Below are positions 4,533-15,947 of a DNA stretch of 15,947 bases, one piece after another. Origin of the DNA: Acidobacteriota bacterium (GTDB taxonomy: Bacteria; Acidobacteriota; Terriglobia; Acidiferrales; UBA7541); contig QHYO01000372.1 in NCBI GenBank assembly GCA_003224135.1, forward strand, positions 1 to 15,947, written 5' to 3'. A model generated the notes under the pieces. That model did no database searches. It was not told where the DNA came from and saw nothing but the letters and a program-made list of their open reading frames with translations. Made by a program: the position numbers and the translations under genes. Every line of letters begins with the position of its first letter. Positions within the stretch are counted from its first letter, which is position 1.

Positions 4533-6581
4533 ATGAGAACGAGTGTGCATAAGCGAGCCATGGCTTGCATCGCGTGCGCGGGTGTGGCGGCGTTGGCGAT
4601 TCTGACGGCGGCGGGAGCACAGGAGACCGCGAAACATCCCATCACGTTTGACGATCTGATCGCCATGCACCGCATTGCCGAAGCCGAGCTTTCGCCAGAT
4701 GGAAAGTGGGTGGCGTATACGGCCGCGACTCCAGACATGGAGGCGAACCGGAATGCGACGAATTTGTGGATGGCGCCGGTGGCGGGCGGCGATGCAATTG
4801 AATTGACGCGGACGGGAAAGGATTCATCGCCTAAATGGTCGCCGGACGGAAAGAAGATTGCGTTTTTGTCGGCGCGCAGCGGGGATTCGCAGGTGTATGT
4901 GCTGTCGATGGACGGTGGCGAAGCGCATCCGGTGACGAAGATTTCAACTGGCGTGGATATCGTGAAATGGTCGCCGGACGGGAAGACGCTGGCGTTCACC
5001 TCATCGGTGTATCCGGATTGTGTGAGCCGCTCGTCGGGCTCGCCGAACAACGACGACGAGTGCAACAAGAAACGAAATGATGAGAAAGAAAAGAACAAGG
5101 TCAAAGCGCACGTTGCGGAAAATTTGCTCTACCGGCACTGGACGCACTGGAATGAGGGACCCCGCGCGCATTTGTTTGTGATCGCACCAGACGGCAGCGG
5201 CGAAGCAAAGGATTTGACGGCCGGAGCGAACTACGATGTGCCGCCCGATCAGCGCGGCGAAGAGAGCGATATCAATTTTTCTCCAGATTCAAAGGAGATC
5301 TGCTTCACCGCAGTGACGGACAAGGTTGAGGCGACAAGCACGAATGGAGACTTGTTTACCGTGCCGGTAAGCGGTGGAGAGCCGAAGCGTATTACAACGC
5401 AGCCCGGATTTGACGGTAATCCGGTGTATTCCCCTGATGGGAAGTACATTGCATATCACGCGCAATTGACTGCTGGTTACGAAGCTGACCGGTGGCGCGT
5501 GATGCTCTACGATCGCGCAAGTAGAAAAAGCGAAAACCTGAGTGAAGGATTTGACCGAAGCGCAACGAATCTGGCGTGGTCACCGGACAGCAAAACGATT
5601 TATTTTTTGGCGGAGAACGAGACGCAGCAGCCGGTATATGCGATGGCGGCGAGGCCGGGAGCTACACCCAAGAAGCTAGTGGACGGGTTCAACAGCGCAA
5701 TCGAGCTGAGCGAAGACGGCAAGACGCTCCTGTTAGCCCGCACAAGCCTGACAATGCCAGCGGAATTATTTGTGGCAGCAAGCGACGGGACGGGCCTACA
5801 GCAGGTCACCCACATGAATGATGCGTTGCTGGCGAAGCTGGAGCTGAAGGTGCCGGAAACATTCTGGTTTGAAGCAGCCGAGGGAGCAAAGGTGCAGGCG
5901 ATGTTGATCCGTCCGCCACAATTCGAAGCGAACAAGAAATATCCGCTGCTGGTACTGCTGCATGGAGGGCCGCAGACGATGTGGTCAAACGCGTAGGGCT
6001 ATCGCTGGAACGCGCAACTGTTTTCCGGGGCGGGCTACGTAACGCTGATGATCAACCGGCGGGGTTCGACGGGCTACGGGCAGAAGTTCACGGACGAGAT
6101 CACGAACGATTGGGGCGGAAAGGCGTATGGCGATGTGATGAAGGGTGTGGACGCTGGTGGATCGTATGGCGGCTACCTGGTGGACTGGATTGCGACGCAC
6201 ACCGACCGTTTCAAGGCCCTGGTGAGCCACGCCAGCGTGTACGACAAAGTTTCGATGTACGCGACCGAGGAGCTGTGGTTTGAAGAGCATGACTTGCAGG
6301 GCACGCCGTGGTCGAATCCGGAGAGCTATCGAAAGTGGGCACCAGTGACGTACGCAGGCGCGTTGGGAAAGTACAAGACGCCAACGCTGGTGATTGCGGG
6401 CGAAAAAGATTTTCGCGTGCCATACACGCAGTCTCTGGAATTTTTCAGCGCGTTGCAACGCCAGGGGGTGCCGTCGAAATTAGTGGTTTTTCCAGACGAA
6501 GGACATTGGGTATTGAAGCCGCAGAACAGCCAATTTTGGTACAAGACATTTTTGGATTGGCTGGCGACGTACTTGAAATAG
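4533..6581 (+). pseudogene. S9 family prolyl-oligopeptidase-like (acylaminoacyl-peptidase type), disrupted
   Basis: One reading frame of 683 codons interrupted by TAG at 5994-5996; the downstream part stays in the same frame. N-terminal Sec signal peptide (about 1-29, ending TAAGAQ), then a beta-propeller with at least six PD40-type motifs (LSPDGKWVAY, WSPDGKKIAF, WSPDGKTLAF, FSPDSKEICF, YSPDGKYIAY, WSPDSKTIYF), then the alpha/beta-hydrolase domain. HGGPQ lies just before the stop. After it come NRRGSTGYGQKF, the nucleophile motif GGSYGGY (Ser codon 6162-6164), Asp in GEKDFRVP, and His in DEGHWV (6504-6506). The stop falls where relatives usually have Trp (SNxWGYRWN-like), so TGG to TAG is likely. 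About 18 residues usual between MKGxD and the nucleophile loop seem missing at about 6152. The intact family is an exported serine peptidase acting on short peptides. The upstream part alone (487 residues, 4533-5996) lacks the catalytic triad. Strong ribosome site AGGAG, five bases before ATG. Confidence 0.85.
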
Positions 6582-6729: not shown

Positions 6730-8577
6730 ATGTCCAAAGAGGGAAACGACAAAATTCAGCGGCGCGATTTCATTAATGGAATGTTAATTGCGGCGGGAAC
6801 GACGGCGGTTGGGAGTTCCTTCCCGATGAGAATGTTCGCGGCTGGCACAACCTTCCCATGCGACGGTCCAATCGGCAGCGACGCACGCGTGCTGCGAGGC
6901 GGAAACTTGCCATCGGTTTTCAACATAGCGCATTGGCTCAGAGACGGCCGGCTCACGTTCAAGACCGACAGCGTGTTGATCTCTTCATCTCCTTGTGACA
7001 GCTTTCAGGGTAGTCAACCAATCCTGGTGGACAACGGAAATTACGAGCTGATTATCGTGGGAAGCGGTATGTCCGGCTGCTCTGCAGCCTATTACACGAC
7101 GCGGCAACGGACCGGAACGAAGATTCTGATTTTGGATGGACAACCTACGCCAGGTGGGAACGCGAATCGGGACGACGCGGCGCCAATCCCGGATGTGGCC
7201 TCAACCGCGACGGCTTATGCGGTGCAGCCTTACGCACCTTTTCTGGAAGATATTTACAACACGACGGGAATCCTCTGGCAGAACTACGTTGTACCAGCCC
7301 CTTTCTACAGCTACTTCTTCGACAGTCAAACGCCTTACGTCAATCCGGGAACGAACAGCTGGAACATCGACACGTATGGAATTGGACTCAATTCAGTTCC
7401 CTATCCGATGAATATTGTGAACGATCTTAAAGCCGCAAGACAGGACTTGATGAACTGGTATCACAAGCCAGGAGCTCCGACCGATCCTGCAGACAACAGC
7501 GATCCGAAATACGATTACCTGTCGCCGATGACGTTCGACGCGTATTTGAGGCAGACGAAGGGATTCCATCCGGCTGTCTCTGATTTTTACACGCGATACG
7601 CCGTGGACGCTCTGGATGGAACAATGGCGCAAGCCTCGGCGTATACCTCAATCAGTTTTCTGGGCGCCGAATATTTCCCATCGTTCGCTTATCCGGGCGG
7701 AAATTCGGGGATGCTGCGACACATCATAAAATGGCTGATTCCGAATGCCATAAGCGGCAGCAGCGAGGCAGAAATACTGGGAAATCCATTCGACTTGGCG
7801 GCAATGGATAATCCCAACAATAATGTGCGGATACGGCAGGGCGCGCTCGTATTGCGGGGCGACACGACGAATTCGAACGCCAGCGTGATTTATTTCAAGG
7901 ACGGCAAGTTCTATCGCGCCGCGGCCAAAGCGGTGATTTTCGCAGGACAGTCGCATACCGCGCGCACGGCGTGTGAACATCTGTTGAGCGCATCGCAGGC
8001 TAACGCGTTCGATCAGGTAACACTCAGTCCGGTATTGACCGCGAACGTGACGCTGCGAAGCGCAGCGCCAATCGTGGACTTGGGATACGACGGATATTAT
8101 TGGGGAAGCCAGTACTGGGCGGATTTCGTGGTGGCCGATTGGGTCGGGCCAAATCGCAGTAACGCCAACCGTCAAACCGTGCTTACGTTCTACGGAGGGA
8201 ATACGGCATCGGTGGAAGACCAACCCAATGAGCGGATCAAACTGCTGACTACACCGTTTTCGAGCTACGAAGATTCCTTGCGAGCTGACTTGAATCGTGT
8301 GCTGGCCGGGCGAAACTTCGATTTTGATCGCGACGTTACCGCAGTCTACCTCTACCGCTGGGGACACAGCATGGTCTATCCGAAACCCGGGTGGCCGTTC
8401 AGCGCTCCGATCAACAAGAACGGGCAGGTGATTCGCGTACCTTCCGCGCGATTCTATGCGCGACAGCAGATCGGGAGGATATCTTTCGGCGCCCAGGACG
8501 TGGAGTCGAGCCCTGCGAATGAAAGCGCTATTGGCGCAGGTGTTCGAACGAGCGGCGAAATTTTACCGCTGCTTTAA
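6730..8577 (+). CDS. Tat-exported FAD-dependent oxidoreductase, spermidine dehydrogenase (SpdH)-like
   Basis: 615 residues. The N-terminus has a Tat signal: QRRDFINGML (Arg11-Arg12) followed by a hydrophobic stretch to about residue 38, so a folded flavoprotein is exported to the periplasm. The conserved pre-domain motif LRGGNLPSVFNIAHWLRDG (54-73) and the Rossmann FAD site LIIVGSGMSGCSAAYY (GxGxxG at 111-116, with acidic D136 ending the second strand) match Pseudomonas-type spermidine dehydrogenases. A C-terminal FAD-contact region GRISFGAQDVESSPANESA lies near the end. SpdH cleaves spermidine oxidatively to 1,3-diaminopropane and 4-aminobutyraldehyde. The polyamine specificity of this protein is inferred from family resemblance only; another amine oxidase activity is possible. 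ATG 6730 has GAGGAGG eight bases upstream. No cytochrome partner gene is adjacent. Ends TAA, facing a convergent gene. Confidence 0.8.
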   Translation: MSKEGNDKIQRRDFINGMLIAAGTTAVGSSFPMRMFAAGTTFPCDGPIGSDARVLRGGNLPSVFNIAHWLRDGRLTFKTDSVLISSSPCDSFQGSQPILVDNGNYELIIVGSGMSGCSAAYYTTRQRTGTKILILDGQPTPGGNANRDDAAPIPDVASTATAYAVQPYAPFLEDIYNTTGILWQNYVVPAPFYSYFFDSQTPYVNPGTNSWNIDTYGIGLNSVPYPMNIVNDLKAARQDLMNWYHKPGAPTDPADNSDPKYDYLSPMTFDAYLRQTKGFHPAVSDFYTRYAVDALDGTMAQASAYTSISFLGAEYFPSFAYPGGNSGMLRHIIKWLIPNAISGSSEAEILGNPFDLAAMDNPNNNVRIRQGALVLRGDTTNSNASVIYFKDGKFYRAAAKAVIFAGQSHTARTACEHLLSASQANAFDQVTLSPVLTANVTLRSAAPIVDLGYDGYYWGSQYWADFVVADWVGPNRSNANRQTVLTFYGGNTASVEDQPNERIKLLTTPFSSYEDSLRADLNRVLAGRNFDFDRDVTAVYLYRWGHSMVYPKPGWPFSAPINKNGQVIRVPSARFYARQQIGRISFGAQDVESSPANESAIGAGVRTSGEILPLL

Positions 8578-8683: not shown

Positions 8684-9343
8684 CTAAAGTCTTGCGAGCG
8701 CGGCACGCGCGAAGCGGAACAAATAGTAGAGCAGAAAGGCGCAAAGGATCAGAAGCGCTACAACGATGACGATGGTTGCGATGGGATGGACCGTCGTGAA
8801 CCATGTTAACCACACGGCGAGCATGTCTTCGCCAAAACTCAAGGCCCAATTGCTGAAAGGTTCGGGGACGGTGTTGACAGCGGCACGCGTCGAGGCTTTC
8901 GCGCTGTGAGAAGTGAGAGCGACACCGCCGGCGAGCAAGGCGGCAGCCCAGCGCCATTCCTGCGGCGCGGCTACGGAAGCGCCGTACGCAATCACGGCAG
9001 CCGCGGGCGGACGTATGAAAGTGTGAATCGCGTCCCAAACGGTGTCGAGATAAGGAACTTTGTCGGCGAGAAATTCGATGATGTAGAGCGCGACAGCAAT
9101 GCCAAGCACGATCGGGTGCCCCACGATTTCAAGCGTCGGCGGAAGGTGAATCAAGCCGAATCGTTGCAGGACGCCCAGCGTTGCTACGGTTGCGTAAAGG
9201 TTGAGGCCAGAGGAAAAACCGGCTCCCAGAGCGAGCCCTAGTGTTTGGAGAGGGTTCACAAGTTGTGATGATATCAGGGGCAAGCGAGGCGACCGGGAAA
9301 AATCTCGCGCTCGCGGCAAAGCTTCGGCCAGGGAAAACCTCAC
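8684..9343 (-). CDS. DUF4126 family integral membrane protein
   Basis: 219 residues with about five hydrophobic segments. Motifs fit DUF4126: ALGAGFSSGLNLYATV, FGLIHLPPTLEIVGHP, IIEFLADKVPYLDTVWDAIHTFIRP, and an alanine-rich TM region. The function of this family is not established, so none is given. GTG at 9343 shares four bases (GTGA) with the TGA stop of the KDPG aldolase gene, so translation is probably coupled and this is the last gene of the cluster. An alternative GTG at 9259 (VNPLQTLGLALG) would remove 28 residues with no hydrophobic character and would start at the conserved region; neither start has a clear Shine-Dalgarno. The C-terminal end is a strongly hydrophobic helix followed by basic residues. 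Stop TAG. Confidence 0.8.
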   Translation of the reverse strand: MRFSLAEALPRARDFSRSPRLPLISSQLVNPLQTLGLALGAGFSSGLNLYATVATLGVLQRFGLIHLPPTLEIVGHPIVLGIAVALYIIEFLADKVPYLDTVWDAIHTFIRPPAAAVIAYGASVAAPQEWRWAAALLAGGVALTSHSAKASTRAAVNTVPEPFSNWALSFGEDMLAVWLTWFTTVHPIATIVIVVALLILCAFLLYYLFRFARAALARL

Positions 9344-9993
9344 CTAGGTCGGCGAGCGGCGCGAACAATGGACACGAGTTCGCGCGCGGCTTCGATGACT
9401 TCTCTTTTGCGGCCTGCTTGCAGCGCGGAAGAGTTGATCAATTCGCTTCCGACTCCAATTGCGAAAGCTCCGGCCGCGAAGTATTCGGCGGCATTCCCTG
9501 CATTCACACCGCCTGTCGGGATCAGAGCGGCGCGCGGAAACGGCCCGCGCAGTGCCTTGATGTGTTTGGCGCCTCCGACACTTCCGCAAGGAAAAATCTT
9601 GACAGCAGGAGCGCCCTCATCGAACGCGACCATCAACTCGGAGGGAGTGAGCGCGCCCGGAATGGCTAGTTTTTCTTTGGCCTGCGCGGTCCGTAGAACG
9701 GAGACACAAAGTCCCGGGCTAACGAGAAATTCGGCGCCGGCGTCCATGCATTCGGCGGCTTCCGCGGAATTTGTGACCGTGCCAGCACCGACCAGAACGC
9801 GGCCGCTGAATTCAGCGGCGACTTTGCTTATGACTTCGAGCGCATTCGGAACGGTCATCGTGATTTCGACTATGGGAATGCCGCCTTCTTCCATCGCTTC
9901 GGCGGCAAGGAGAGCTTCTTGCGCGCTCTGAGCACGAATGACGGGAATAACTCCCACTCGACGGATCGTACTTAGTGTCTGTTCAACGCTCAT
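9340..9993 (-). CDS. eda: 2-dehydro-3-deoxy-phosphogluconate (KDPG) aldolase
   Basis: 217-residue class I aldolase of the KDPG/KHG family, cutting 2-keto-3-deoxy-6-phosphogluconate to pyruvate and glyceraldehyde 3-phosphate in the cytoplasm. The Schiff-base lysine is K132 in AVKIFP, the general acid/base glutamate is E43 in IVEITM, and the phosphate-binding motifs VGAGTV (68-73) and PTGGV (159-163) are intact. The length is normal for the family (E. coli about 213). I start at ATG 9993 (MSVEQTLSTIRRVGVIPVIRA), which fits the family; the frame stays open 56 codons upstream, but that part overlaps the kinase gene and is not conserved-looking. The gap to the kinase stop is 41 bases and holds a weak GAGGC/GCCTC hairpin (10017-10034). 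Overlaps the DUF4126 start by four bases. Relatives (DgaF) pair with a DgaE-type ammonia-lyase in Salmonella, as here. Confidence 0.93.
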   Translation of the reverse strand: MSVEQTLSTIRRVGVIPVIRAQSAQEALLAAEAMEEGGIPIVEITMTVPNALEVISKVAAEFSGRVLVGAGTVTNSAEAAECMDAGAEFLVSPGLCVSVLRTAQAKEKLAIPGALTPSELMVAFDEGAPAVKIFPCGSVGGAKHIKALRGPFPRAALIPTGGVNAGNAAEYFAAGAFAIGVGSELINSSALQAGRKREVIEAARELVSIVRAARRPR

Positions 9994-10034
9994 TTCGTTT
10001 TTCCGTTCATGGATAAGAGGCAACTGCCAGCCTC

Positions 10035-11126
10035 TCAGCGCGAAATTCTTGCTGACTGTCCTTTCATCACCGCCAGGACTTCCTGCAAACTGGCCATGGA
10101 TGTGTCGCCAGGAGTGGTCATTGCGAGTGCCCCGTGAGCCACGCCGCATTCGACGGCCCACGCGAGGTCGTGGCCAGTGAGAAAGCCGTAGATCAAACCG
10201 GAGGCGAACGAGTCTCCTCCACCAACTCTGTCAAAGATCTCCAGGTCCTTTCTTGTTGCGGCCTCGTAGAAAGAGTCGTCGGCAAGCGCGATGGCTCCCC
10301 AGTCATTTCGCGTCGCCGTATGGGCGGTCCTCAAAGTGACCGCAACCACCGACAGATTGGGAAATTCAGAGCGCACGGTTTTCATCATCGTCTTGAAATT
10401 TGCATGATCGAGCCGAGAAATGTTTTCGTCCATTCCCGGAACCGAATAGCCCAATGCTGCGGTGAAGTCCTCTTCGTTTCCGATAAGCACATCGACGAAC
10501 GGCATGAGAGCGCGATTCACTTCTTGAGCTTTTGCTTTGCCACCGACAGATTGCCAGAGTGAAGGGCGGTAGTTCAGATCGTAGGAGACAGTTGCACCCG
10601 ACTTTTTGGCGAGCTGCATGGCCTCGAGGGCGACCGCGGGCGTCGTTTGAGAGAGCGCGCAGAAAATTCCCCCAGTGTGAAACCATCGAGCGCGCTGCCG
10701 AACAAAGATTTCCTCCCAATCAATGTCGGCTGTCTTCAATTGAGAAACTGCGGTGTTTCCACGGTCCGAACAGCCGCAAGCAGCTCGTACACCGAAGCCG
10801 CGTTCCGTGAAATTCAGGCCATTGCGGACTGCGCGGCCTACGCCGTCGTACTTCACCCATCGGACATGGTCTAGGTCGACGCCACCTTGCAACATGAGAT
10901 CTTCGACAAGGCGTCCTACTGGGTTGTCAGCGAGCGACGTGACGATGGCGGTATTCATCCCGAACGTGCGACGTAACCCGCGCGCCACATTGTATTCGCC
11001 GCCGCCTTCCCATACGCGAAATTCCCGCGCCGTGCTGACGCGCACGTCGCCTGGGTCGAGGCGTAGCATTACTTCGCCCAAGCTGATCAGGTCCCAACGG
11101 CAGCCTTCTTTTGCGCGGACTTTCAT
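10035..11126 (-). CDS. kdgK: PfkB family sugar kinase, probable 2-keto-3-deoxygluconate (KDG) kinase
   Basis: 363 residues, ribokinase/PfkB fold. N-terminal LISLGEVMLRLDP and the substrate-binding GGGEYNVARGL (41-51) are present. YDLNYRPSLW (182-191) is the motif seen in KDG kinases. The C-terminal PfkB signature DRVGGGDSFASGLIYG (299-314) holds the catalytic base D305. The expected reaction is ATP-dependent phosphorylation of 2-keto-3-deoxygluconate to KDPG, the substrate of the adjacent aldolase; the neighbour is the strongest argument for KDG over another keto sugar acid. About 50 residues longer than E. coli KdgK, through inserts around 105-130 and 225-275. ATG 11126 overlaps the MFS stop (ATGA) and has AAGGA eight bases upstream, so coupled translation is likely. 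Stop TGA. Confidence 0.85.
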   Translation of the reverse strand: MKVRAKEGCRWDLISLGEVMLRLDPGDVRVSTAREFRVWEGGGEYNVARGLRRTFGMNTAIVTSLADNPVGRLVEDLMLQGGVDLDHVRWVKYDGVGRAVRNGLNFTERGFGVRAACGCSDRGNTAVSQLKTADIDWEEIFVRQRARWFHTGGIFCALSQTTPAVALEAMQLAKKSGATVSYDLNYRPSLWQSVGGKAKAQEVNRALMPFVDVLIGNEEDFTAALGYSVPGMDENISRLDHANFKTMMKTVRSEFPNLSVVAVTLRTAHTATRNDWGAIALADDSFYEAATRKDLEIFDRVGGGDSFASGLIYGFLTGHDLAWAVECGVAHGALAMTTPGDTSMASLQEVLAVMKGQSARISR

Positions 11127-12469
11127 TTCGACATCCTTTGCGGAAACATTTGTACCGCCGGACGGATTTGTAGTGATGTTCGGGGATCAACCCCCAGCCA
11201 AAAGATCGCGCCGAGAACGGAAACGGCCGCAGCTGCGTGAAATGACGCATTCCATCCAAACTTATCGGCGAGCCATGGCGTGAGAGAGACCGTGAGCATA
11301 CCGCCGAACTGGTTTCCCATGTTCATCAAGCCGGATACCGAGCCGGAGGATTTGCCGCCAAGATCGGCGGAAACAGCCCAGAACGAACTTTGTGTCAGAT
11401 AGAGCGAGCCAGCCCCTCCCGCGAGAACCACGCTCGCAAGGCGTGCGTCTTCTGCGGCAGATCCCGCAGTAATGAAAACGGCGGTCAACAAGAAACCTAG
11501 CACGGAAATGCCGCAGCGCCCGAGGCGAGAGTTTGTGCGTTTGGTGATCCAATCGCCAATCGCTCCTCCCAAGGGACTGCAAACAGCCATAGCCAAGAAC
11601 GGGAGCGTTGCGTAGAGCGCGCTCGATTTGAGATTCAGTCCGCGCACTTTTGCGAGATAGAGATAAAACCAACTGAAGAAGACCCACGCAACGTAGCCAA
11701 AGCAAAAGTAGGCCAATGTGATAGTCCAGATGGTGCGGCTTGAAAGAATTGCCACCCATGACAGAAGCGAAGCGGCCGAGTTCCCTTCCCTCTGATGTTC
11801 AGGAAGTCCTCGCTTGATGGATTCGAGTTCACTCGGCGAAACCCAGTGATGCGACTGGGGCGTATCACGAGATGTGACGTACCATACGACTCCCGCGGCA
11901 AGTCCAATGAATGCACAGAGCACAAAGGATGACCGCCAGCCGTAGTGCGACATCAAAAACGAAATGAGCGGAGGAGTGACCCCGGCCCCGATTCCCACGC
12001 CGGCGAAGATGATTCCGTTTGCGATGCCTCGTTCATTGCTGGGAATCCATCGGGAAACAAACTGGTTCGATGTCGGGTAAATGACCGCTTCACCCGCGCC
12101 AAGGAGGAAGCGGATCACGATCAGGAGCGCCAATGCCGATCCCATGCGAGTCGAAATTCCTGCTGTCAAAGCGCTAAACAGCCCCCACCACAACACTCCG
12201 ACAAAGAGCATGCGCCTTGCGCCAAAACGGTCGGCCAGCCAGCCGGCTGGGGTCTGGAACAGCGCATACCCCAACAGAAATGAACTGAAGACCAGACCCA
12301 GCTGAACGTTAGTGATGTGAAATTCTTCGGCAATCAGCCCGCCTGCGATGGAAATGTTGACGCGATCGAGGTAGGCGACAGCACTGAGCACAAACAGCCA
12401 GAAAATCAGAAACCAACGAACGTGGCTTGAAGCGCGCGGGCTCACCGTGACGCTCTCAACTTGCGACAC
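11123..12469 (-). CDS. MFS transporter, ACS (anion:cation symporter) type, probable sugar-acid importer
   Basis: 448 residues with 12 predicted transmembrane helices in two halves around a hydrophilic loop (about 195-235). The ACS-family start SAVAYLDRVNISIAGGLI and the MFS motif A WLADRFGARRMLFVG (77-91) are clear, as is the second-half GGAIGDWITKRTN. ACS members such as ExuT, GudP and DgoT bring hexuronates, glucarate or galactonate across the inner membrane with protons. Position between the PLP lyase and the KDG kinase suggests the substrate is the sugar acid made in the periplasm, plausibly 2-keto-3-deoxygluconate; this is inference. The start is uncertain: GTG 12469 has no clear Shine-Dalgarno, and GTG 12445 eight codons later has GAGAG nearby. 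The 55-base gap to the PLP gene holds nothing obvious. Stop TGA overlaps the kinase start. Confidence 0.88.
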   Translation of the reverse strand: MSQVESVTVSPRASSHVRWFLIFWLFVLSAVAYLDRVNISIAGGLIAEEFHITNVQLGLVFSSFLLGYALFQTPAGWLADRFGARRMLFVGVLWWGLFSALTAGISTRMGSALALLIVIRFLLGAGEAVIYPTSNQFVSRWIPSNERGIANGIIFAGVGIGAGVTPPLISFLMSHYGWRSSFVLCAFIGLAAGVVWYVTSRDTPQSHHWVSPSELESIKRGLPEHQREGNSAASLLSWVAILSSRTIWTITLAYFCFGYVAWVFFSWFYLYLAKVRGLNLKSSALYATLPFLAMAVCSPLGGAIGDWITKRTNSRLGRCGISVLGFLLTAVFITAGSAAEDARLASVVLAGGAGSLYLTQSSFWAVSADLGGKSSGSVSGLMNMGNQFGGMLTVSLTPWLADKFGWNASFHAAAAVSVLGAIFWLGVDPRTSLQIRPAVQMFPQRMSK

Positions 12470-12524
12470 GCTGAGAGCAAGGCGAGGTTGCGCGGATTAA
12501 CAAACGCGGAATTGCGCGACAATT

Positions 12525-13784
12525 TCAAGCGCTGTGTGCCTTAAATAGTTGCGCGAGCTGGGCCGCGATCATTTTCTCTTCGCCGGGCTGGAGCATGAAC
12601 GAATTCATGGAGAGCGCGGTTTCGGACGAATCGAGCACGATGCAGGGTTTCCCGTTGCGCAGGGCGTTGACGGCATCCTTAACCGTCAGCACGACCTTCT
12701 GGTCCCAGGAAATCTTCATGTGCGGCACGTGGTTGGCCACGTCCGGTGTGAAAAATGAGGTGCTGACGCCGGGCACGCGAGTGATCTCGGCGGAGATTGC
12801 GTCGAGACGTCTTTGCCATTCCTTGCTCAGGGCTGCGTGGTCCTCGCTCAGGTAAGATTCAAGCGCCTTCACCATTCCTACAATTTCTTCCTTGCCGACT
12901 TTTTGACTGCGTCCCAGAGTGTCCTCGTGAGGACTATTGTTCAAGAGAGCGTTTGCGACGAGGTCCCTTTTTCCAAGTAAAATGCCCGCGCACTGTGGTC
13001 CACGAATGGCCTTGCCGCCGCTGAAGGCAATTAAGTCGTAGCCCATATTCGCGTAGTCCGAGAGATGCGAAACGGGAGGCGTATCGGCAGCGGCATCGAT
13101 GAAAGCTGGGATTTTGTATTCGTGCGCAAGCTTCACCCACTCCTCGACTTTAATTTCCCCAGCGGCGTCGGCGAAATTGGTGAAGTGCATCATCGCGGTT
13201 TGCGGGTTGACTGCTTTCTTCAAATCGTCACGCGTCTCTACAACCACGAGCTTCACGCCGGTTGCACGCAACTGGTGATCGAAGGGATTGCGATGAGATT
13301 TCTGGATGATGACTTCCGACTTCATGCCGGTGAGATCGGGAAGTTGCTCGATAAACTTGGGATTGTCGCCGGTAAGAATTCCCGCGAGGCCGGACTGCAT
13401 TGCCGCCGCCGCTCCAGAGGTGACAATCGCTGAGTACCCTTCCGGCAGCTTCAGCAGCTGCGTGATGCGCTTTCCGGCCGCGACTTCTAATTCGGCAACG
13501 CTGACAAAATGTTGCGAAGCCAGGGCCATCACGGCTTCCACTTCCGGGCGTACCAGCGAGCCACCTAATACAGTCATCGTTCCCTGACCATTGATGACGG
13601 TTGTGACGCCCAATTCTTCGTAGACATTGCCTGTGGCGCCGAAACCCGTTAAGTTCCCGGGCACGCCTGCCACCGGCTGGCTGACCGTCCAACCGAACGT
13701 CTTTTTGGCGCTCACTAACATTCCGGCCAGCGTGCCTGCACTTCCGAGAAACGCTCGGCGATTCCAAATTTGACGGAGGCTCAT
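12525..13784 (-). CDS. Tat-exported PLP-dependent lyase of the SelA/DgaE family
   Basis: 419 residues of the fold-type I PLP family that includes selenocysteine synthase SelA and D-glucosaminate-6-phosphate ammonia-lyase DgaE. The PLP lysine is K258 in FSGGKAIRGPQ and the pyridine-nitrogen aspartate is D230 in FIDAAAD. VTSGAAAAMQSGLAG (121-135) is the cofactor phosphate loop, and NGQGTMTVLGG (65-75) is the DgaE/SelA-like N-terminal motif. It lacks a tRNA-binding context, so a true SelA role is unlikely. Unusually, the N-terminus has NRRAFLGSAGTLAGMLVSA (8-26), a twin-arginine signal, so a folded PLP enzyme is apparently exported. Likely chemistry: removal of water and ammonia from a 2-amino-3-hydroxy sugar acid, giving a 2-keto-3-deoxy acid. 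The substrate is inferred from neighbours. ATG 13784 lies four bases after the RidA stop, with AGAGGT inside the end of that gene. Stop TGA. Confidence 0.85.
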   Translation of the reverse strand: MSLRQIWNRRAFLGSAGTLAGMLVSAKKTFGWTVSQPVAGVPGNLTGFGATGNVYEELGVTTVINGQGTMTVLGGSLVRPEVEAVMALASQHFVSVAELEVAAGKRITQLLKLPEGYSAIVTSGAAAAMQSGLAGILTGDNPKFIEQLPDLTGMKSEVIIQKSHRNPFDHQLRATGVKLVVVETRDDLKKAVNPQTAMMHFTNFADAAGEIKVEEWVKLAHEYKIPAFIDAAADTPPVSHLSDYANMGYDLIAFSGGKAIRGPQCAGILLGKRDLVANALLNNSPHEDTLGRSQKVGKEEIVGMVKALESYLSEDHAALSKEWQRRLDAISAEITRVPGVSTSFFTPDVANHVPHMKISWDQKVVLTVKDAVNALRNGKPCIVLDSSETALSMNSFMLQPGEEKMIAAQLAQLFKAHSA

Positions 13785-13788
13785 TGGT

Positions 13789-14304
13789 TTACCTCTTTCC
13801 CTTAGCGTTCGTCACGGCGGCCGTGCAATTGATTTCGACGAGGGAATTCCCCGGAAGAGCGGCGACTGCGACGGTAGTACGCGCCGGTCCGCCGTTTGGA
13901 AAATATGTCTTGAAGACTTTGTTCATCCCGTCGTAGTTGTCGATCGTCGTCAGGTAGACCGTGAGCTGCAGAATGCTGTCCATGCCGCCGCCGCCTGTTT
14001 CGACCAGCGTCTTAACGTTGTCCATTACCTTTTTTGTGTGCGTCTCAATGTCCATCGGGAATTTTCCCTCAGGATCATACGAGTGCGCACCCTGACCGGC
14101 GATATAAATCACACCGTTGTGGATGATCAAAGGAGTGATGAAACCCGTGCCGGCGGGCTTTCCTTCATAGTCCAGTTTTTGTACGCCTGTAGCTGCTTGT
14201 GGCTCGGAGTTTAGGGGAAGTGCAGTTCCACTCAGGCCCAGACCCGGAATCAGTGCTGCAAGTCGCCCCGCGAAGCCACGCCTAGTCGATAAAGTCGAAA
14301 ACAT
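13789..14304 (-). CDS. Tat-exported RidA family enamine/imine deaminase
   Basis: 171 residues: a RidA (YjgF/YER057c/UK114) domain from about 40 to 165 behind an N-terminal signal. RidA hydrolyses reactive enamine/imine intermediates released by PLP enzymes to keto acid and ammonia. The signature ARTTVAVAALPGNSLVEINC (141-160) contains R142, equivalent to the carboxylate-binding Arg105 of E. coli RidA, and E157, equivalent to Glu120. IYIAGQGA (66-73) matches the core strand. RidA is normally about 128 residues and cytoplasmic; here TRRGFAGRLAALIPGLGLSG (7-26) looks like a Tat signal. Its exported location and its position four bases ahead of a Tat-exported PLP lyase indicate a working pair. 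ATG 14304 has a perfect AAGGAGG six bases upstream. The gap to the PQQ enzyme stop is 39 bases. Stop TAA. Confidence 0.88.
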   Translation of the reverse strand: MFSTLSTRRGFAGRLAALIPGLGLSGTALPLNSEPQAATGVQKLDYEGKPAGTGFITPLIIHNGVIYIAGQGAHSYDPEGKFPMDIETHTKKVMDNVKTLVETGGGGMDSILQLTVYLTTIDNYDGMNKVFKTYFPNGGPARTTVAVAALPGNSLVEINCTAAVTNAKGKR

Positions 14305-14343
14305 GTTATTCCTCCTTCGAGATTGGTTTTTGAAAAGCAGCTG

Positions 14344-15947
14344 CTAGGGAAGCGCAAAACTGAAAATGTCACTTCCAGCAGCAATGGCCACATACTGTTT
14401 CTTGTCAACTGCATAGCTCATGGGCGACGCGCTGATCGTCTGGCCAGTATTGAAATGCCAGAGAGGCCTGCCCGATGCGGCGTCGACTGCTTCGAATGAT
14501 TGCGCATCGTCTCCGAAAAAAACCAGACCGCCCGATGTAGACATGCTTCCACCAGACGAATGACCCGCACCCGATTGGACATACCGCCATGCCGGCTTGT
14601 CCCCTTCCAGTGAAAACGCCAGCAAGATTTTTTGGCCGTGATCTCCTTCACTATGTCGAACGCCAGTCGAATAGTAGGTCTTGCCGGGTTCGAACTTCCG
14701 CGGCTTCAAAAGATAGAGGTCGCAGTTTTCAAGAGCGAGAAAATAGAACAGTCCAGTGGACGGGTTGAACGAAGGGGCATACCAATTCGTTGCACCCGCA
14801 AATCCTGGGCACACGCGCGTTCCCGCCGGGCTAGGTTTGATATCGGTTCGAATAGGCCGACCGCTGGAATCGATTCCGCTTGCCCAGTTCAATTTTTCTA
14901 CAAAACGTGTCGCGGAAAGGAATTTGCCGTCGATGCGATCGAGAACATACAGGAAACCGTTGCGATTCGCCTCGACCACAAGTTTTCGAGGCTGACCGCG
15001 AAACACAGCGTCAATCAGAACGGGAGTTTCCGTGGCGTCGTAGTCGAAGAGGTCGTGCGGAGTGAACTGAAAAAACCATTTGAGCTTGCCGTTGTCAGGA
15101 TCGAGGGCTAGCAGGCAATCGGTATAAAGGTCGTCACCGGGACGCGGTCCGCCGTCGAAGTCGGGCGCTGGATTGCTCGTTCCCCAAAAAAGTGTGTTTA
15201 GTTCCGGATCAAAAGTGCCGGGCATCCACGCGGTGCCTCCACCAAGCTTGTATGATTCGCCGGGCCAGCTGGAAGAACCGAATTCTCCAGGCCCGGGAAT
15301 TGTCCAGAAGCGCCACACTTCGCTGCCGGTTTCCGCGTCGTAAGCGGCGACGAAACCGCGCACTCCGTCATCACCGCCCGATGTACCTACGACGATTTTG
15401 TCTTTGACGACCAATGGCGCGCTGGTCGCACCATAATTTTTGTTTCCGTCAGTGTAGGCAACGTCCCACAAAAGATGACCTGAGCGCGCGTCCAGGCAAA
15501 GTAAATGCGCGTTATCCGTTTCCAGGTACACGCGCGAATGCCACAGACCCACGCCGCGATTGTGATGTTGCGCAGCGTCGTCAATGAGACCCTCAGTAAT
15601 GGGGCGGGAGTAGTGCCAGAGCGAACGGCCGGTTTGCGCGTCCAACGCATAAGCATCGTTCGCCGAAGTGACGAACATGATTCCGGCGGCGACAACCGGA
15701 GTAACCTCCAGACTGCTGGAGTTCGGTGCGTGAAAAACCCACTGTACGCGCAGGCTGGCGACATTTTTTGTGGTGATTTCCTGGAGTTCGCTGTATCGCT
15801 GCCCTGTGTAGTCGGCGTTGTAGGACAGCCAATTCGAGAGCGGCGGTTTTGCGAGCAGTTCGGCAGGCTTGACATCAATCGCAACTGCAGCGGAAGCGCG
15901 GCTTATGGTCTGGGCGGAAAGAGAGGACGCGCATGCCGTGAACAGCG
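14344..15947 (-). CDS. PQQ-dependent dehydrogenase (quinoprotein beta-propeller), 5' end outside window
   Basis: The frame is open to the window edge, giving 534 visible residues; Met at 15678 is internal. The first visible residues LFTACASSLSAQT look like the end of a signal peptide, so only a few residues are missing. Quinoprotein features follow in order: NWLSYNADYTGQRYSELQEI (38-57), NRGVGLW, TSGGDDGVRGFVAAYD, GGGTAWMPGTFDPELNTLFW with GTSNPAPD, FQFTPHDLFDYDATE (holding the expected catalytic Asp), GATNWYAPSFNPSTGLFYF, and the C-terminal SGGLVFFGD and QYVAIAAG. No CxxCH haem motif is present, so this is type I. The vicinal Cys pair of methanol/ethanol dehydrogenases appears replaced by Ala-Ala (codons 15571-15576), and the usual calcium-ligand Glu before GVRG by Asp. 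It oxidises an alcohol or sugar in the periplasm; substrate unknown. First visible gene of the cluster. Stop TAG. Confidence 0.9.
   Translation of the reverse strand, partial: LFTACASSLSAQTISRASAAVAIDVKPAELLAKPPLSNWLSYNADYTGQRYSELQEITTKNVASLRVQWVFHAPNSSSLEVTPVVAAGIMFVTSANDAYALDAQTGRSLWHYSRPITEGLIDDAAQHHNRGVGLWHSRVYLETDNAHLLCLDARSGHLLWDVAYTDGNKNYGATSAPLVVKDKIVVGTSGGDDGVRGFVAAYDAETGSEVWRFWTIPGPGEFGSSSWPGESYKLGGGTAWMPGTFDPELNTLFWGTSNPAPDFDGGPRPGDDLYTDCLLALDPDNGKLKWFFQFTPHDLFDYDATETPVLIDAVFRGQPRKLVVEANRNGFLYVLDRIDGKFLSATRFVEKLNWASGIDSSGRPIRTDIKPSPAGTRVCPGFAGATNWYAPSFNPSTGLFYFLALENCDLYLLKPRKFEPGKTYYSTGVRHSEGDHGQKILLAFSLEGDKPAWRYVQSGAGHSSGGSMSTSGGLVFFGDDAQSFEAVDAASGRPLWHFNTGQTISASPMSYAVDKKQYVAIAAGSDIFSFALP

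Follow-up and report, generated by a model that had tools for sequence, protein, structure and literature searches.

How might an acidobacterium strip the amino group from a sugar acid before the carbon skeleton enters the cytoplasm? The question is posed by six adjacent genes in a 15,947-base stretch of DNA (the window), which is the entire contig C348 (GenBank QHYO01000372.1) of a 4.54 Mb, 85% complete genome of an Acidobacteriota bacterium. All six are read from the minus strand with at most 55 bases between neighbours (41 from aldolase to kinase, a 4-base overlap of kinase and transporter, 55 from transporter to lyase, 4 from lyase to RidA and 39 from RidA to quinoprotein). Pfam and NCBIfam place their products in the families of 2-keto-3-deoxy-6-phosphogluconate (KDPG) aldolase, PfkB kinase, major facilitator superfamily (MFS) transporters, SelA-fold pyridoxal 5′-phosphate (PLP) enzymes, RidA and quinoproteins. 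An earlier note on this DNA had listed the same six genes, which position, strand and families confirm, and had joined them into one pathway from a periplasmic oxidation to the aldolase. Other genomes show most of this arrangement too, so it is not a matter of chance. We lean slightly towards a split oxidative route for a 2-amino sugar, taking the mechanism as a whole: the layout is supported, while the exact sugar is a guess.

Central to this reading is the gene at 12525–13784, whose product is a putative PLP lyase with a twin-arginine translocation (Tat)-type signal that profiles, residues, predicted structure and tree identify as kin of DgaE and Cap15. The Tat motif (NRRAFL, residues 8–13, at 13746–13763) was found with a loose regular expression, which matches all 59 orthologues (that of the window among them) and all 19 paralogues but none of seven DGL sequences. 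Orthologues and paralogues were divided at 58% identity among open reading frames (ORFs) of at least 380 amino acids, a division that forms no strict clade because two paralogue rows nest among the orthologues in the tree. In the alignment, the PLP lysine (Lys258 in an SGxK motif, codon at 13011–13013) is kept in 58/58 orthologues, 19/19 paralogues, 7/7 DGL sequences and Cap15, Asp230 is kept in 58/58 orthologues, and Arg292, Lys295, Lys298 and Glu299 are common to the lyase family and DGL in all rows. By sequence, the closest solved relatives are DgaE/DGL (7lc0; 106.6 bits, 26% identity) and Cap15 (8t7j; 90.6 bits). The predicted structure, with a confidence score (pLDDT) of 86.8, has the SelA/Aminotran_5 fold and matches 7lc0 at a Foldseek E-value of 3.0e-30, with a weaker match to SelA. 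The fold named in the earlier note thus stands, with DgaE as the best match in the Protein Data Bank (PDB), but the enzyme is not DgaE itself: residues, export signal and scores below both DgaE cut-offs (TIGR01437, 180.7 against 385.3 bits; NF047797, 138.4 against 600) rule that out. The tree has 44 rows (16 orthologues out of 59, all 19 paralogues, seven DGL sequences, Cap15 and one Latescibacterota protein), and the tree program flagged long branches in it; DGL and Cap15 share a long branch with full support, apart from the acidobacterial enzymes.

The residues that set the two groups apart are informative about the possible substrate. In the passages covered of a study on DGL (PMC9529869), a docked model places Arg301, Arg332 and Arg346 close to the phosphate, and His163 is the residue that protonates C3; an H163A mutant is still active but lets the enamine escape into solution, and the study names RidA as an example of the enzymes that remove products of this sort. 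At the three phosphate positions, none of the 58 aligned orthologues has an arginine (one of the 19 paralogues has Arg at the first, Arg301), a change that an unphosphorylated substrate, as the earlier note proposed, would require. The proton-donor pair His162/His163 is likewise replaced throughout, by Asn in 58/58 (Asn203 in lyase numbering) followed by Phe in 54 (Phe204) or Tyr in four, and other lost DGL sites now hold His355 (51/58) and Phe396 (58/58). Judged from these alignments, the natural loss of both the phosphate arginines and the histidine in an exported enzyme would fit an unphosphorylated substrate and release of an enamine. Because of the Tat motif, the lost His and Arg residues and a RidA gene only 4 bp away, we infer an unphosphorylated 2-amino sugar acid as substrate, with deamination completed by RidA.

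Two further observations concern this enzyme family. A second Tat-type lyase paralogue (about 32–46% identical to that of the window) lies near a secreted triple-RidA protein at eight loci of the survey described below (L032, L033, L034, L035, L037, L042, L043 and L078), often within the cluster of the first lyase and mostly accompanied by a TPR protein and a small secreted protein, which we take to resemble CBM9. At another locus, L017 (G017:C388:2040–3263), the lyase orthologue has one internal TGA and sits on a short contig.

The RidA gene (13789–14304) encodes a protein that reaches the PF01042 threshold and scores below the TIGR00004 cut-off (80 against 106.25 bits), and it too would be exported, carrying a twin-arginine motif at residues 7–12 (TRRGFA, 14269–14286). 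The strict Tat expression RRx[FLM][AMLV] matches 36 of the 46 RidAs encoded on the same strand as their lyase, and eight of the remaining ten have RRxF followed by Thr or Gly. Its catalytic Arg and Glu are retained, the pattern P-x-R-x14-E being present in 64/67 members of the RidA cluster and 44/46 of the same-strand ones. In the part covered of one RidA study, an Arg of this kind (Arg105 type) is required for imine hydrolysis, with Glu120 15 residues further on (PMC4433059).

The sixth gene (14344–15945) encodes a quinoprotein dehydrogenase and is incomplete because the window is the whole of its contig, so that the 5′ end is missing at the contig end. Its product has a pyrroloquinoline quinone (PQQ) propeller (PF01011), with 1kv9 as best PDB match (1.5e-96). 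The PQQ dehydrogenase proposed earlier holds in part: even the incomplete protein passes TIGR03075 (PQQ-dehydrogenase), if barely (481.3 against 480.05 bits), but the best NCBIfam model, TIGR04528 ('acido-empty-quinoprotein group A'), is not passed by it (520.2 against 650). Among 50 long quinoproteins of the survey, regular expressions find PHDxxD in 49, GG[DE]xG in 49, GGGxxW in 40, NRG in 35 and NPxP in 29, and the protein of the window has all five; the roles of these motifs, including that of PHDxxD as bearer of the catalytic Asp, are our assumption. A cofactor-free quinoprotein, as the name 'acido-empty' might suggest, was considered as a certainty and rejected, as the genome itself encodes PqqC and PqqE, both over cut-off on a single contig (C507), leaving two relatives as exceptions (see below). 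None of the 14 controls passes the cut-off for PqqE, nor any of the 14 for PqqC; in the genus, PqqE passes in 26/36 genomes and PqqC in 27/36, and both occur in 15 of the 17 same-genus genomes that carry the lyase. Acidobacteria are also listed among quinoprotein users in the covered part of a published account (PMC12124388).

How far this association extends was surveyed in one scan of 68 loci, of which 66 have a lyase orthologue (at least 58% identity by tblastn; L090 and L099 were excluded); the denominators given here are the loci with enough flank, and as the genomes are related the counts are not independent. By title, the records with the closest lyases are nearly all metagenome-assembled genomes of Acidobacteriota. 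RidA lies directly upstream of the lyase in 49/60 loci, the quinoprotein gene is adjacent in 44/57 and within 9 kb in 48/53, and an MFS gene of the sugar-acid type follows downstream in 45/57. Beyond these, a two-haem cytochrome c (47/53 loci; 47 of its 49 members carry two CxxCH motifs), a secreted RraA-like protein (46/53), a gluconolactonase-like protein (30/53), an IclR regulator (24/53) and a mutarotase-like protein (14/53) are encoded nearby, and RraA, cytochrome c and quinoprotein occur together in 40/53. Near the quinoprotein, a DUF4380-like secreted protein (L070:1792–3234, plus strand, and relatives) has a galactose-mutarotase-like fold according to its model (pLDDT 74.9; Foldseek E-value 3.7e-10). 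The proposal of an extracytoplasmic oxidation joined to a PLP/RidA module with an importer is thus supported by Tat motifs, residues and linkage, and further strengthened by the secreted gluconolactonase-like, cytochrome c and mutarotase-fold neighbours, by PqqC and PqqE, and by the NagB-like genes considered below. In the genus, 17 of 36 genomes have a lyase orthologue (at least 69% identity), while in a phylum sample of 297 genomes including this one no other genome has the lyase at E ≤ 1e-140; with 66 orthologous loci in another collection, the gene is therefore patchy in its spread. One record, L043 (CAJCHZ010000056.1), is titled Betaproteobacteria, but its cluster is of the acidobacterial type and closely resembles that of L042, so the record is probably a mislabelled bin. 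In the literature covered (titles, starts of abstracts and open-licence full texts), we found no description of such a gene combination.

In the genome itself, the window ends in 127 bases (15821–15947) that recur without a mismatch at the start of contig C599 (L102 in the survey); the two contigs were kept separate. C599 continues with RraA-like, cytochrome c (divided over two ORFs) and gluconolactonase-like genes. Further along it encodes a putative nickel-dependent hexonate epimerase of the LarA superfamily (622.8 bits against a cut-off of 500), a gluconate-5-dehydrogenase/KduD-like short-chain dehydrogenase/reductase (SDR), a KduI/IolB-family protein, a GH67 alpha-glucuronidase and a polysaccharide-deacetylase-family protein. 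The epimerase, SDR, KduI/IolB-family and GH67 genes (L102:3113–6168 and 10074–12605) make up a sugar-acid island beside the cluster. The epimerase, the only one of these uronate genes that the genus survey covered, was ruled out as a part of the conserved unit: it is present in 6/36 genomes and, apart from this genome, on a different contig than the lyase where both are present.

The three remaining genes of the run would serve uptake and cytoplasmic breakdown. The MFS transporter (11123–12469; PF07690) is of the sugar-acid type, its best NCBIfam model being the D-galactonate transporter TIGR00893, whose cut-off it does not reach (254.5 against 395 bits). The kinase (10035–11126; PF00294) would be cytoplasmic and resembles 2-keto-3-deoxygluconate (KDG) kinases, with that of Thermotoga maritima as nearest solved structure (2afb, E 1.4e-55), and scores below the KDG-kinase equivalog cut-offs (NF041332, 163.7 against 440; NF040938, 74.2 against 400). 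The predicted cytoplasmic aldolase of the KDPG/2-keto-4-hydroxyglutarate type (Eda; 9340–9993; PF01081) passes TIGR01182 (194.8 against 156.05 bits) and has the Thermotoga maritima KDPG aldolase 1wa3 among its best PDB matches; its start is probably at 9993, preferred because a longer ORF to 10161 overlaps the kinase.

Some neighbours point to amino sugars in particular. A NagB-like gene is found in 11 of the 66 loci (L048, L052, L059, L064, L066, L067, L069, L072, L073, L075 and L085); its product belongs to PF01182, has glucosamine-6-phosphate deaminase 2bkv as nearest solved structure (E 8e-29) and matches glucosamine-6-phosphate deaminase models best in NCBIfam, all below cut-off. In eight of these 11 loci there is also a gene for a secreted F5/8-type-domain protein, with only a sub-threshold GH39 match. 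Polysaccharide-deacetylase-family genes occur in three of the 66 loci, in addition to that on C599. The NagB-like and polysaccharide-deacetylase-family neighbours therefore lend modest, independent support to an amino sugar.

From the gene content and its conservation, the signal motifs, the active-site residues, the fold of the lyase model and the PQQ-synthesis genes, we infer the following reactions, substrates, locations and flow. A periplasmic quinoprotein would oxidise the amino sugar at C1 and hand its electrons to the two-haem cytochrome c; at loci that encode them, the mutarotase-fold protein may supply the right anomer and the gluconolactonase-like protein may open the lactone. The exported PLP lyase would then remove the 3-hydroxyl of an unphosphorylated 2-amino-2-deoxy aldonate of the D-glucosaminate type and, because it is without the proton-donor histidine of DgaE, would release an enamine or imine. 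The adjacent exported RidA would convert this to a 2-keto-3-deoxy acid and ammonia, the MFS carrier would import the keto acid, and KDG kinase and KDPG aldolase, adjacent or elsewhere in the genome, would yield pyruvate and glyceraldehyde-3-phosphate. D-glucosaminate in particular is a doubtful choice of substrate. It is possible, and we propose it tentatively, that a Tat-exported SelA-fold branch gave up its proton donor and took on an exported RidA as dedicated second enzyme, so that ammonia would be formed in the periplasm and the cell would take up just the keto acid.

This layout differs from known routes in compartment and in PLP fold type. With DgaE/DGL it shares the SelA-type fold, the PLP lysine and the Arg292/Lys295/Lys298/Glu299 set, and presumably the product class and the aldolase step; in contrast to DgaE/DGL, the lyase has a Tat-type signal and is without both the phosphate arginines and His162/163. 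In the covered part of a report on the ong chitin-oxidation pathway of Pseudoalteromonas prydzensis (PMC9537276), glucosaminate is likewise turned into KDG, and a RidA-family protein and the KDG kinase KdgK are needed for growth. In that pathway, however, deacetylase and deaminase are predicted to be cytoplasmic, OngC is a PLP enzyme of fold type III, and oxidation is started by a lytic polysaccharide monooxygenase with no quinoprotein; the lyase, with its SelA-type fold and Tat motif, is thus neither of fold type III nor a predicted cytoplasmic deaminase. Acetic acid bacteria offer a parallel for the proposed first step, as amino sugars become hexosaminates by oxidative fermentation (in Gluconobacter from glucosamine, mannosamine and galactosamine); unlike here, the covered passages of that account mention no linked lyase or RidA (PMC9171043).

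Several findings weigh against this split route. The lyase is linked to the kinase in only 10/42 loci and to the aldolase in 8/39, so that the single linked route of the earlier note lacks support as far as linkage goes: lyase homologues mostly occur without these two genes beside them. Of the neighbours it had predicted, RidA is a regular one and the kinase and aldolase are not, and these counts make the periplasmic module the conserved part, with kinase and aldolase usually elsewhere. Within the genus, the kinase adjoins the lyase in only three of 17 genomes (G000, G002 and G021). A role for it nevertheless gains from its presence (at least 60% identity, a few hits partial) in all 17 same-genus genomes that carry the lyase but only 11 of the 19 that do not (Fisher p 0.003, uncorrected for relatedness), although those 11 lyase-free genomes also mark it as a general gene. 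Only 24 of the 48 testable loci have the whole unit of quinoprotein, RidA, lyase and MFS, and at L039 and L041 lyase and MFS genes stand with quinoprotein and RidA absent nearby, as a minimal unit or a remnant. At L062, from the cultured Acidobacteriaceae bacterium KBS 96, quinoprotein, cytochrome c, lactonase-like and lyase genes are present, while RidA and MFS genes are absent next to the lyase. No vicinal Cys-Cys was found in the first 200 residues of any of the 50 quinoproteins. In G006, which has a quinoprotein orthologue, PqqC has no hit and PqqE none over cut-off, and in G007 both are below cut-off, so that imported PQQ, or none, is possible in some relatives. NagB-like proteins would have a phosphorylated, cytoplasmic amino sugar as substrate, which is a different route; the gene is found at none of the 14 loci whose kinase lies within 4 kb (L052 has a kinase farther away), and the loci with a NagB-like gene possibly hold a second amino-sugar route. 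Finally, the ong deaminase yielded KDG and ammonia in vitro even in the absence of its RidA, according to the covered part of that report (PMC9537276).

The scarce linkage of kinase and aldolase is also what an alternative would predict in which lyase and RidA act on some other amino acid (beta-hydroxy or D-configured, from peptides or the wall), the kinase and aldolase belonging to general uronate KDG metabolism and adjoining by chance. The continuation of the cluster into GH67, KduI/IolB-family, KduD-like and epimerase genes suits this view, as do an S58 peptidase, an amino-acid permease and an amidohydrolase-like ORF noted by eye in the first half of the window. We regard it as unlikely, though deserving of weight, since quinoprotein, cytochrome c and lactonase-like genes accompany the lyase across genomes and suit a sugar more than a peptide, some loci have NagB-like and polysaccharide-deacetylase-family genes that suggest amino sugars, and the epimerase, the sole uronate gene tested, is confined to few genus genomes and lies off the lyase contig in the others that have both.

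Another alternative makes the PLP enzyme O2-using, in the manner of Cap15 or PvdN, with oxidative deamination or decarboxylation of a beta-hydroxy amino acid and RidA clearing the imine. PvdN, of pyoverdine maturation, is periplasmic and Tat-exported and so a precedent for an extracytoplasmic PLP enzyme; unlike the enzyme proposed here, it uses O2 and has a siderophore substrate. Cap15, a PLP- and O2-dependent monooxygenase-decarboxylase, shares the fold and the lysines, its own substrate is a beta-hydroxy-alpha-amino acid, and in predicted structure it is as near to the lyase as DGL, a further point against a DGL-like reaction. It is, however, phosphate-dependent, keeps the three phosphate arginines that are absent from the lyase family, and groups with DGL. 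The sequence score favours DGL, Lys295 and Lys298 are common to lyase and DGL and not just to Cap15, and some loci have genes for KDG kinase, KDPG aldolase and a sugar-acid carrier next door, all of which makes this alternative rather improbable.

More improbable still is a wholly extracytoplasmic route to pyruvate, in which a secreted RraA-like aldolase would cleave the keto acid and the MFS carrier import a smaller acid: a secreted RraA-like protein is a commoner neighbour than the kinase, and 16 of the 66 loci have a second such gene, 11 of the 16 hits showing Asp at the D-x20-R-D position, but in the common RraA-like protein Gly takes the place of the acidic residue of the aldolase motif (43/45), so that this protein may not be an aldolase, and the carrier is of the sugar-acid type. 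We assume the role of the D-x20-R-D motif in RraA-like aldolases. The second RraA-like gene (L053:1477–2382, minus strand, and 15 other loci) lies between lyase and MFS in several loci, and its product is a possible extracytoplasmic pyruvate aldolase.

Elsewhere in the window, an S9-type peptidase gene (4533–6581, by eye) is broken by an in-frame stop at 5994–5996 and has an apparent short internal loss near the catalytic-serine motif, after which the frame resumes; it is apparently a pseudogene or an assembly error. The FAD/NAD-binding oxidoreductase encoded at 6730–8577, which bears an RRDF motif close to its start, is unrelated to the six-gene cluster.

If the split oxidative route is true, soil Acidobacteriota would use amino sugars with oxidation, deamination and enamine clearance preceding uptake, and exported RidA would gain a physiological role. 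This would possibly explain why a RidA-family protein is needed for growth in the marine chitin-oxidation pathway, and the exported lyases would form a third functional branch in the DgaE/Cap15 group of PLP enzymes.

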